From assembly GCA_016342285.1 (NCBI GenBank), contig JAEINQ010000006.1, positions 62,001 to 126,000 on the forward strand: DNA of 64,000 nt. The letters are read 5' to 3'. Every line of letters starts with the position of its first letter. Positions within the stretch are counted from its first letter, which is position 1. A model generated the notes under the pieces. That model searched no databases. It worked only from the letters and a program-made list of their open reading frames with translations, and had not been told where the DNA came from. This document shows, one piece after another, positions 7,074-11,318 of this stretch. The position numbers and the translations under genes are program-made. The stretch is from Desulfobacterales bacterium (lineage in GTDB: Bacteria; Desulfobacterota; Desulfobacteria; Desulfobacterales; JAEINQ01).

Positions 7074-7277
7074 AAGGTTTTCCTTGTTTGGTTTCCATCC
7101 ATAATTGGACAAAAATTCTCATTTATAAATTGGAAACGCCAATCGGGCGGGCAGACGCTGAAAAGGCATGCACACCCTTGCAAAAAATGTCAATTCTGAT
7201 ACATTTGATCCGAAAGCCCCGGCCCTGGTTACCGGCCTGTCATCAGCCGACAATGACCGTCACACAAAAAGCCTGTG

Positions 7278-7370
7278 TTGCACCACGAAGGAGGCGAAGA
7301 GCGCGACGAATTCGCAATAATATATAGTATTTTAAGCTTCGTGTACTTCGTGCTCTTCGTGGTAAATTCA
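7278..7370. repeat. Palindromic period-9 element P2
   Basis: The left arm CCACGAAGGAGGCGAAGAG faces the right arm CTTCGTGTA CTTCGTGCT CTTCGTGG, three 9-bp units, across an AT-rich spacer (ATAATATATAG). The same right-arm sequence recurs at about 8795 and 12765. The 7074-7909 gap holds this element and P3 and no credible gene. Confidence 0.75.
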
Positions 7371-7687
7371 AAAAATTGTCATGTTGGTGACTTTCCGCGA
7401 TGGCATCAACAATGACCATGGCCACAAAACCGTCCGCTATCGGCCCTGAACCGAGCGCTGGCTTTGCTATATCAATATTGACATGGTTGTTTCAAGTTGT
7501 TTTTAATTTTAACGATGCTCAAACCGACAAAAGACGACCGTTTCGGATCAAATCCGACACCTGGACCACAGCCGCCGCCTGCTGAACCGGCCCGATGGCT
7601 TGTCCATGGGGATCGGCTCTGTTACATTGCCGGCCGCGACCCTTAGTGCTTGAATTCGCAATTATTGAGACGTCATCTAATGTTTTT

Positions 7688-7857
7688 TTACCACTGAGAC
7701 ACTGAGGCCACAGAGCTTTTGCTATTTATCCCCGGCCGGGAGACGGCGGCCGGGGATAATAAAGCCTTGACAGAGCAAGCTTTTCACAGATCGTCGTCTC
7801 CCGATCTGTGAAAATAATGGGTAACCCCTCTGTGCACTCTGAGTCTCCGTGGTGGAA
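7688..7857. repeat. Palindromic element P3 enclosing two hairpins with complementary loops
   Basis: Outer arms CCACTGAGACACTGAGG (left) and CTCTGAGTCTCCGTGG (right), both built of about 9-bp units, pair at about 20 of 25 positions. Between them are two perfect hairpins, described in the next entry. The whole 170-bp element could fold as a three-way junction. It ends about 50 bp before the start codon of the ModE-like gene, so it may be part of that gene's leader, or it may be a mobile palindromic element. Confidence 0.8.
7725..7814. promoter_or_regulatory. Two perfect 13-bp hairpins with 7-nt loop-loop complementarity
   Basis: Hairpin 1: arm TTATCCCCGGCCG (7726-7738), loop GGAGACGG, arm CGGCCGGGGATAA (7747-7759). 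Hairpin 2: arm TTTTCACAGATCG (7781-7793), loop TCGTCTCC, arm CGATCTGTGAAAA (7802-7814). Loop 1 GGAGACG is the exact reverse complement of loop 2 CGTCTCC. Read directly from sequence. A kissing interaction in RNA, or a paired cruciform in DNA, is inference. No U-run follows hairpin 2 on the plus strand, so it is not a standard terminator in that direction. Confidence 0.7.
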
Positions 7858-7909
7858 TAAAAATGCGTAGGCTTACTTATGAATAGGACCACTTGGGGAA
7901 AGGCATACA

Positions 7910-8260
7910 ATGACAGCACCACAGGCTAAATTTGCCGTTCGATCCAAGATCTGGGTGGAAGATGACAACGGGAACGTGGTCTTCGGTTTGGGTCGCTACC
8001 GCATGCTGGAGGCAGTCGGCCGCCTGGGGTCGCTTCAGGCCGCGGCCAAGGAATTGAAGATGGGCTATCGGGCGGTCTGGATGCGGGTCCGGGCCTCGGA
8101 GGAGAGGATGGGGCGGACCCTGGTGGAGCGGAAAGGAAAGGGGTCGAGCCTGACCCCCTTTGCCGAAAACCTCATGAAGCAGTACCGGCGAATGCTGGCC
8201 ATCGTCCACCAGGAATCCGACGAGGTCTACGACGGATTCATGCGCGAGCATTTGCCGTGA
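7910..8260 (+). CDS. ModE-like winged-helix regulator (DNA-binding domain only)
   Basis: This 116-residue protein matches the N-terminal LysR-type winged helix of the molybdate regulator ModE: RYRMLEAVGRLGSLQAAAKELKMGYRAVWMRVRASEE, then LVERKGKGSSLTPFAENL. It lacks the C-terminal molybdate-binding (TOBE/MOP) domains, so it binds DNA but probably does not sense molybdate by itself; such short forms are common in deltaproteobacteria. It starts at the ATG at 7910 (MTAPQAKF), with AAAGG upstream. It lies near a dead formate dehydrogenase and a few kb from a MocA-like enzyme, which fits a molybdoenzyme context. The target genes are unknown. Confidence 0.82.
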   Translation: MTAPQAKFAVRSKIWVEDDNGNVVFGLGRYRMLEAVGRLGSLQAAAKELKMGYRAVWMRVRASEERMGRTLVERKGKGSSLTPFAENLMKQYRRMLAIVHQESDEVYDGFMREHLP

Positions 8261-8340: not shown

Positions 8341-8614
8341 CGGCGGAATCGCTGGATACTGGGTACTGGATACTCGATGCTGGATGTGGGATCGAAATCG
8401 AGTTATTGGATTGCCGCATTGGGCATTGACGAATTGACGAAATTGCGGATTGCCTTCCTTCAGGCTTCAGACTTCAGGCTTCAGACTTCGGACTTCAGGC
8501 TTCAGACTTCGGACTTCAGTCTTCGGACTTCAGACTTCAGACTTCGGACTTCGGACTTCAGTCTTTCCCTGGATGTGGGATCTGGGCCTGCCCGGCGTAG
8601 CCGTAAGGCGAAGA
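8341..8614. repeat. Composite heptamer element, copy A
   Basis: It contains ordered modules: six CTGGATA-like heptamers (8352-8393), a GAATTGACGAATTGACG module, 15 unbroken heptamers of CTTCAGA type (8458-8562), and the tail CTGCCCGGCGTAGCCGTAAG. Copies B, C and D (11.3, 11.6 and 16.1 kb) carry the same order. Because 7 is not a multiple of 3, all frames read SDFRLQT-like heptads, which explains the spurious ORFs here. Confidence 0.85.
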
Positions 8615-9045
8615 CGGGATGGGGAATCCCGATCAGTGTGGAGTGACTAAAGTTAATGAGTCGCTACGCTCCACCGGTTTTTTGTACGGGCGATCCGTTC
8701 TCAAACCAGACCAGGCCACACATGATGGTCACACCCGGCCGTCATTCCCGCGAAGGCGGGAATCCAGAAGGCATTAAGAAACCAATAATTTCAGCTTCGT
8801 GTACTTCGTGCTCTTCGTGCTCTTCGTTGTAAATTAGAAAAGTTGGCGCGACAGTGAACCGTCTATTCAACCCCCAGCCGAGAATTTTAAAACCGCGGAA
8901 TGTCGAATTTCCAATTTCGAATTCTCAGGTATCGTCACCGGACGCCTTGAACTCTGGCGGCCCACAACACACAAAGCTGAATCTCTCCCACCGTTGTTGA
9001 TTTTTAGCGGCAAAGCCGCGTTTCAGTTAAAATTGCTCCGCAATT
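8615..9045. other. Gene-free repeat mosaic
   Basis: It holds a TGACTAAAGTTAATGAGTCG segment of the R3 type (about 8643), the dispersed inverted repeat GTCATTCCCGCGAAGGCG (8741-8767), a period-9 array CTTCGTGTA CTTCGTGCT (about 8795-8830) and a period-7 array AATGTCG AATTTCC AATTTCG (8899-8926). No gene is seen. Confidence 0.65.
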
Positions 9046-10830: not shown

Positions 10831-11318
10831 AGGTCCTCCCCATTTTAGGTTTGTAATGCGCCAACTTGACCCTAACGATGCAAAAGCCGGAGGGCTTCAG
10901 AGCCAAGGCGCAAAGGGTGAAGTCGTAGTTCTTTACTGCGAACCCTATGCAACGCCGGCTCTGGGGTTCTCCGGCTTTCCCGACCTGTCGGGCGTAGCCG
11001 TAGGCGAAGACTGAAGGGTAAAAAACAATGGGAAATCATCCGGCATTCTGGAATCAATCGGTGGTGAAATCCATACATTGACTGTTAAATTTCTTTTTAT
11101 ATCGAAATGTCTGCGTCTTAACCGCTTTCGTTATGTTTTTATGCAACTATAGGGTTGATGCACGTGTAGGCAGTCGCTTGAGCCACAAAGGCACAAAGCG
11201 CACAAAGCGCACAAAGCGCACAAAGAAAAAATTGCTTACTTCAATGGGATTCGGATTCCATTCTGTTTATTCTATCCCCCAATAAAATCAAGATATTTTA
11301 TGTAAAAGAAATGCAACA
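10831..11318. other. Gene-free gap with period-9 array
   Basis: A CACAAAGCG period-9 array lies at about 11184-11226. Before it is a segment with GTCGGGCGTAGCCGTAGGCG, a relative of the tail module in the composite heptamer elements. No gene is visible. Confidence 0.55.

Follow-up and report, generated by a model that had tools for sequence, protein, structure and literature searches.

The two hairpins that precede a ModE-like regulator gene in the window, a stretch of 64,000 nucleotides from a Desulfobacterales bacterium, are part of a real, conserved and dispersed DNA element and not a unique leader. Sequence comparisons indicate that this feature is probably a miniature, non-autonomous derivative of a palindromic mobile element whose longer form carries a gene for a GxxExxY protein, a putative nuclease on which its mobilisation would depend. 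Confidence is good that the window copy is a miniature of a GxxExxY element, and its mobilisation by the GxxExxY nuclease is plausible.

Anatomy of the window element and its copies in the same genome

Re-reading of the sequence at 7688-7857 confirmed the two perfect 13-bp stems with 8-nt loops that a first-pass annotation had described there, together with the 7-nt complementarity between the two loops (GGAGACGG and TCGTCTCC) in the window copy. Hairpin 1 occupies 7726-7759 on the plus strand (7726-7738, loop GGAGACGG at 7739-7746, and 7747-7759) and corresponds to a match of model R1 at G000:C17:69726-69759 (E 4.6e-8). Hairpin 2 lies at 7781-7814 on the minus strand (7781-7793, loop TCGTCTCC at 7794-7801, and 7802-7814) and is matched by the same model at G000:C17:69781-69814, minus strand (E 1.1e-7); its loop, TCGTCTCC on the plus strand, reads GGAGACGA on the minus strand, that is, the motif of hairpin 1 inverted. 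The hairpins are separated by a linker of 21 nt (7760-7780), at the place where the coding relatives L024, L055, L057 and L269 hold a GxxExxY gene.

Outside the hairpins, a left arm (7690-7715, plus strand) made of ACCAC and three direct repeats of an iteron of about 9 nt (CACTGAGA-CACTGAGGC-CACAGAG) faces a right arm (7828-7853, minus strand) which is an inverted copy of it (CTCTGTGCACTCTGAGTCTCCGTGGT). The inverted pairing of the enclosing arms was as annotated, with a corrected count of 21 of 26 positions instead of 20 of 25. The feature exceeds the interval reported at first: an outer module common to sister copies (7642-7689) opens with CTTAG (7642-7646), a sequence of the target-duplication-like type CTWAG that is followed by TGC/TAC, and an outer right end, CTTGG (7892-7896), differs from the left CTTAG by one mismatch. 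At the place matching the window CTTGG, the sister copies L026 and L033 end in ...GGACCACTAAG and ...GGACCACTAAA, respectively. A ModE-like gene does start downstream, at 7910 and 56 nt past the arm where about 50 had been given, and encodes an HTH_1 / ModE-like N-terminal domain. The element itself is intergenic, beside this HTH_1 gene, and has no ORF. Its fold is far beyond chance, with z = -6.85 as RNA and z = -8.40 as DNA, none of 200 shuffles being as stable in either case.

A DNA search by BLAST gave 45 matches to the feature in its own assembly, and a covariance model of the hairpin, built from 55 diverse sequences, located 86 hairpins at 54 sites of that genome. Second copies, on whose existence the annotation had made its reading depend, are therefore present, the window feature being one of about 54 dispersed sites. 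At 32 sites the model found convergent hairpin pairs, and pairs in any other orientation were absent from this genome; sites with a single hairpin are interpreted as copies that are truncated or that have a partner hairpin scoring below threshold. The fetched copies share a core of the form ACCAC-arm / hairpin 1 / linker / hairpin 2 / arm-GTGGT, with linkers of 9 to about 170 nt in the gene-less ones, and adjoin unrelated genes. Searches of viral contigs for an exact hairpin pattern match and of plasmids for a DNA match to the element found none.

Stem covariation and loop conservation across genomes

Scanning one genome per species with the pattern TTTT-N7-CG-GGAGACGR-CG-N7-AAAA revealed, among the matches listed, at least 80 loci or contigs, nearly all of them from Desulfobacterota MAGs. 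The hairpin takes the form TTTT-N7-CG / GGAGAYNN / CG-N7-AAAA. Seven of its 13 pairs are left free by the pattern; among the matches listed, 100 of 128 hits had all seven complementary and 127 of 128 had four or more, with at least 39 distinct 5' stem sequences. In the non-redundant set, all 13 pairs showed double-sided changes and the covariation score was 0.81, against 0.17 for shuffled sequences; 98% of cells were paired, a value that is inflated because only rows with 12 or more of the 13 pairs in Watson-Crick form had been admitted, and in such a near-perfect-stem set it is the variety of pair types that is informative and not the percentage paired.

The loop core GGAGA was kept on both hairpins. 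Partner hairpins, for which the pattern had not selected, nearly always had a GGAGAYNN loop, and they were essentially always located downstream and inverted. Both loops read TGAGAGG in a distant family and GGGAGGC at another locus, so the ends are able to change in concert. Across genomes, the arm at either end consists of a unit of about 9 nt (CAC-NGAG-NN) in three direct copies, and the hairpin comes after it.

Some loci depart from this plan. In L134, L140, L129 and L081 the loop of hairpin 2 keeps its 5' GGGAG(A) and the remainder is replaced by a nested hairpin, which suggests that GGGAG is the recognised part. In L103, L122, L165, L169 and others, an extra small variable hairpin (e.g., ACCACCCGCTTCGCTCGAGGCACAGAG) is inserted between ACCAC and the first GAG and is mirrored in the opposite arm. 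We also considered that the loop might copy the last three letters of the iteron (GAG with CACAGAG, GAC with CACAGAC), an idea that was dropped on account of inconsistent strand orientation.

The complementarity of the two loops had been interpreted as a kissing contact, for which compensatory loop changes would be expected. Many copies, however, retain both stems without full loop complementarity, an outcome that the annotation had itself named as refuting its reading: in L122, L165 and L176, GGAGACGA occurs together with GCATCTCC, the stems being kept and the loops not fully complementary, and the inner positions of the two loops often differ without compensation. Selection for kissing loops as a general feature was discarded, given that the loops differ in many of the 62 non-redundant element types. 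Loop complementarity follows from dyad symmetry, because both hairpins carry one loop motif in inverted orientation, and the simplest reading of these sequences would be one recognised motif per end and no kissing contact.

GxxExxY genes and iteron ends

By tblastn, GxxExxY ORFs were found between the hairpins in L055, L057 and L269, and adjoining one hairpin in L171, L239 and others. The genome of the window has a coding copy as well, L024 (G000:C76), in which an arm, hairpin 1 (loop GGAGACGA), an ORF, a remnant of hairpin 2 and the opposite arm follow one another. The ORF encodes 127 amino acids and matches PF13366 (4e-43) and TIGR04256 GxxExxY (7e-45). L024 stands directly beside a gene-less miniature, their left ends being 78% and their right ends 77% identical, and the window left end is 73% identical to that of L024. 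The window copy has, as do L024 and the loci of the phylum, inverted arms at both ends in which a unit of about 9 nt is directly repeated three times, and sequence comparison showed that its left arm is shared by copies with a GxxExxY gene and by other families of Desulfobacterota. Because the GxxExxY gene is absent from the window copy, in which the 21-nt linker takes its place, this copy is regarded as a miniature derivative and not as a full member.

GxxExxY proteins (TIGR04256/PF13366), the products of a large orphan gene family, are small PD-(D/E)XK nucleases with an intact D...ExK...QxxxY site. Only one GxxExxY copy with matching arms and hairpin was seen in the own genome, versus 54 sites, and the related, miniature-rich genome G672, which holds L096 (CP070735.1), gave only a partial PF13366 match. 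PF13366 genes were present in 11 of the 12 other hairpin-bearing genomes looked up, compared with 91 of 247 genomes overall. An AlphaFold model based on three sequences (pLDDT 65) was too weak to place the fold and had no meaningful PDB match; the search for a PDB sequence homologue of the GxxExxY protein was negative, as was that for a GxxExxY match in phages. Many bacterial genomes have genes annotated as GxxExxY (TIGR04256), for which, to our knowledge, no function has been described. In those parts of the open-access literature that were accessible to searching, GxxExxY received an incidental mention, and the term also appears once in a paper on an algal virus genome; paper texts searched for the arm and loop motif sequences returned nothing relevant, and a description of such an element was not found in the literature searched.

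GxxExxY genes of the phylum were also fetched regardless of repeats (n = 97) and their flanks scored for inverted repeats with a cut-off of ≥28. Inverted iteron repeats flanked 57 of these genes as compared to 2 of 300 random positions, and the best iteron period was 8-10 in 43 of the 57 loci. The units are diverse (CACAGAG, CGCAAAG, CACGAAG, CACGGAA, CGCAGAT), and the size from arm to arm ranged from 425 to 651 bp in the 16 elements measured. Other phyla and plasmids gave a similar picture, with inverted repeats at 17 of 34 GxxExxY genes versus 1 of 68 controls, examples being Bacteroides finegoldii, Gemmatirosa and Bernardetia. Between taxonomic families, protein identity tracks iteron similarity (Spearman 0.33, 0 of 2000 permutations), and conservation of the D...ExK...QxxxY catalytic residues stands at 98-100%. 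GAG-loop hairpins occurred in the flanks of only about 6 of the 97 unselected genes, and so the hairpin is a subfamily mark and only the iteron ends are general; under a loose hairpin rule, 8 of the 97 genes matched where shuffling predicted 0.4. As a separate observation, the GxxExxY genes of L448 (on a Sphingomonas parapaucimobilis plasmid), L445 and L447 sit in tight gaps between co-directional genes, such gaps being found between fabD and fabG, after radA, and between ade and a mannose-1-phosphate guanylyltransferase gene.

We propose an element with two inverted ends, each consisting of three iterons of about 9 nt and one sub-terminal hairpin with a GGAGAYNN loop, which in longer relatives enclose a single GxxExxY gene. 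The GxxExxY protein would bind the iterons as duplex DNA and, at each end, the GGAGAYNN loop once the hairpin is extruded or single-stranded, and would cut at the ends; the palindrome might then be copied or moved to new sites, with gene-less miniatures, the window copy included, using the protein in trans. The dispersed copies, the covarying stems with a constant loop, the symmetric ends, the enclosed gene and the tracking of repeat type with protein are all consistent with this proposal. It counts against the proposal that examination of the arm boundary revealed neither a target duplication nor an empty site, as do the small share of GxxExxY genes with the hairpin, the single matching GxxExxY copy in the own genome and the partial PF13366 match in G672.

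More tentatively, and with a probability that we set slightly under one half, a class of mobile DNA that has so far gone unrecognised may exist in several phyla, with GxxExxY proteins as its only enzymes; PF05635/IVS genes with 7-nt iterons would form a parallel class. Members of the GxxExxY class would be elements of 425-650 bp ending in inverted triplets of 8-10-nt iterons, hairpins being optional, that spread via the action of the nuclease on folded ends and spawn abundant miniatures. We know of no assigned origin for the common intergenic repeats of the ACCACAGAG and ACCACGAAG types. A link between repeat and gene would suggest a plausible role for the orphan GxxExxY family, the mobilisation of small palindromes within genomes, and would provide a testable system in which a PD-(D/E)XK nuclease recognises element ends through their iterons and hairpin loops. 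Movement of DNA by such a nuclease would be unlike DDE or HUH transposition.

Iterons were also seen at genes of another family. Across this phylum, PF05635 (four-helix-bundle / 23S_rRNA_IVP) genes at L324-L353 are flanked by inverted tandem 7-nt iterons, with an inverted-repeat score ≥28 in 22 of 25 loci and a best period of 7 in 19 of 25; at L328, TCGTAAA is repeated five times beside the gene. These iterons fit the tandem heptamers found beside the S23p ORF in the Coxiella IVS, the origin of which is unclear (PMC4990558), and they are relevant to a long-standing question, the means by which 23S rRNA intervening sequences spread. The window itself contains, immediately past the ModE-like gene, 15 copies of the 7-nt unit CTTCAGA (8458-8565), which looks like a PF05635-type iteron array without a gene. 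Repeats of 9-nt period at 7276-7364 and 8795-8827 (ACCACGAAG.../...CTTCGTGCTCTTCGTGGT) are likely remnants of another GxxExxY-type iteron family (compare L316), and therefore at least two element families would lie around the ModE-like gene. An iteron-like 9-nt tandem array, CACAAAGCG, is present in 4.8 copies at 11184-11225.

Other explanations and known systems

Because the core is wrapped here in outer CTWAG duplication-like ends, a conventional transposase is the main rival to mobilisation by a GxxExxY protein. The element would then be an ordinary MITE, moved by a DDE transposase acting on outer CTWAG-TAC... termini with a 3- or 5-bp duplication (TWA/CTWAG), and the hairpin core would be a passenger or a second, nested element. 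Many copies of the own genome are indeed wrapped in outer ends that start with CTWAG, and eight have identical CTWAG at both ends (CTTAG/CTTAG or CTAAG/CTAAG, the central W always matching); L034-type outer termini are found again at 21 places, and a similar terminus occurs in another genome (L120). These ends, however, read CTTAG/CTTGG in the window copy and are missing from most own-genome and nearly all other-genome copies, in which the core and the arms are kept; the two PF01609 transposases of the own genome are not flanked by them, and a conserved loop on covarying stems would be left unexplained. An autonomous IS with the same ends was not found in the own genome when PF01609, Y1 and the L034-type terminus were searched, and where examined the L034-type termini lead only to non-coding copies. 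We consider it unlikely that the element is such a MITE; a conventional transposase may have moved the own-genome lineage with CTWAG ends.

Far less probable is a REPIN-like element that a RAYT-type Y1 (HUH) transposase would move by recognising single-stranded DNA hairpins. Inverted hairpin doublets do resemble REPINs (PMC3116915) and the own genome has 11 Y1_Tnp matches, but the GAG-loop hairpin was not found near the 8 of these 11 loci that were inspected, and the GTAG or CGTC tag that by definition lies beside the stem (PMC3733652) is absent, the conserved motif being in the loop. The Y1 genes L048 (G000:C66), L044 and L049 have different hairpins of their own nearby (e.g., AACAAAAATTACCCAAAACGGCT-TAG-AGCCGTTTTGGGTAATTTTTGTT), as would be expected of RAYT/REP sets.

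We give equally little credit to a structured RNA (a leader, an antisense RNA or a processing signal) selected at the RNA level, for which the very stable RNA fold speaks, as does the frequent view that REP-like repeats are transcribed (PMC3733652), and against which stand the 54 sites beside unrelated genes, one loop motif on opposite strands, the lack of an Rfam family above the gathering score and of a promoter or terminator consensus, and G.T versus A.C mispairs of 28 versus 40 on the loop-bearing strand (p = 0.18), a weak test, since a transcript would contain the two hairpins in opposite senses. Dispersal, strand symmetry and, weakly, the lack of a G.U bias do not favour an RNA role. A leader of the ModE-like gene in particular is rejected because the element is dispersed at 54 sites, its copies standing beside unrelated genes; neither an intrinsic terminator nor a promoter consensus was found at the window element. 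Among the three alternatives of the first-pass annotation, the best fit is that of a mobile palindrome with hairpins recognised as folded DNA, given its dispersed sites, the stem covariation with a fixed loop, and the nuclease gene of the coding relatives.

In its way of working, the proposed GxxExxY element is closest to the REPIN/RAYT system (Bertels and Rainey, 2011, PMC3116915; Di Nocera et al., 2013, PMC3733652). Both comprise short, dispersed, intergenic and non-autonomous inverted hairpin doublets tied to a dedicated DNA-processing protein whose gene lies elsewhere in the genome, whereas an 8-nt loop motif and iteron arms are found here instead of a GTAG/CGTC tag beside the stem, and the protein is of the PD-(D/E)XK type (GxxExxY) instead of a Y1 HUH transposase. 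With MITEs (reviewed in PMC10969869; e.g., Chunjie of Geobacter) it shares small size, non-coding nature, dispersal, inverted ends and, in some copies, target-duplication-like CTWAG ends; unlike them, it ends in three direct repeats of about 9 nt and a covarying hairpin, and a search for PF01609 did not find a DDE transposase with matching ends. The 23S rRNA IVS (S23p / four-helix bundle ORF, PF05635; Coxiella, PMC4990558) is similar in having a few hundred bp, inverted repeats and one short ORF, and differs in its protein family, in iterons of 7 nt instead of 8-10 nt, in its location, the present elements lying outside rRNA genes (intergenic in the window), and in that a hairpin of this type occurs only here. 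Finally, as far as their published description allows comparison, the multicopy families of Geobacter bemidjiensis (PMC2996986), from a related group, are likewise palindromic and direct-repeat families that fill intergenic regions, catalogued in that description without an assigned gene or mechanism.
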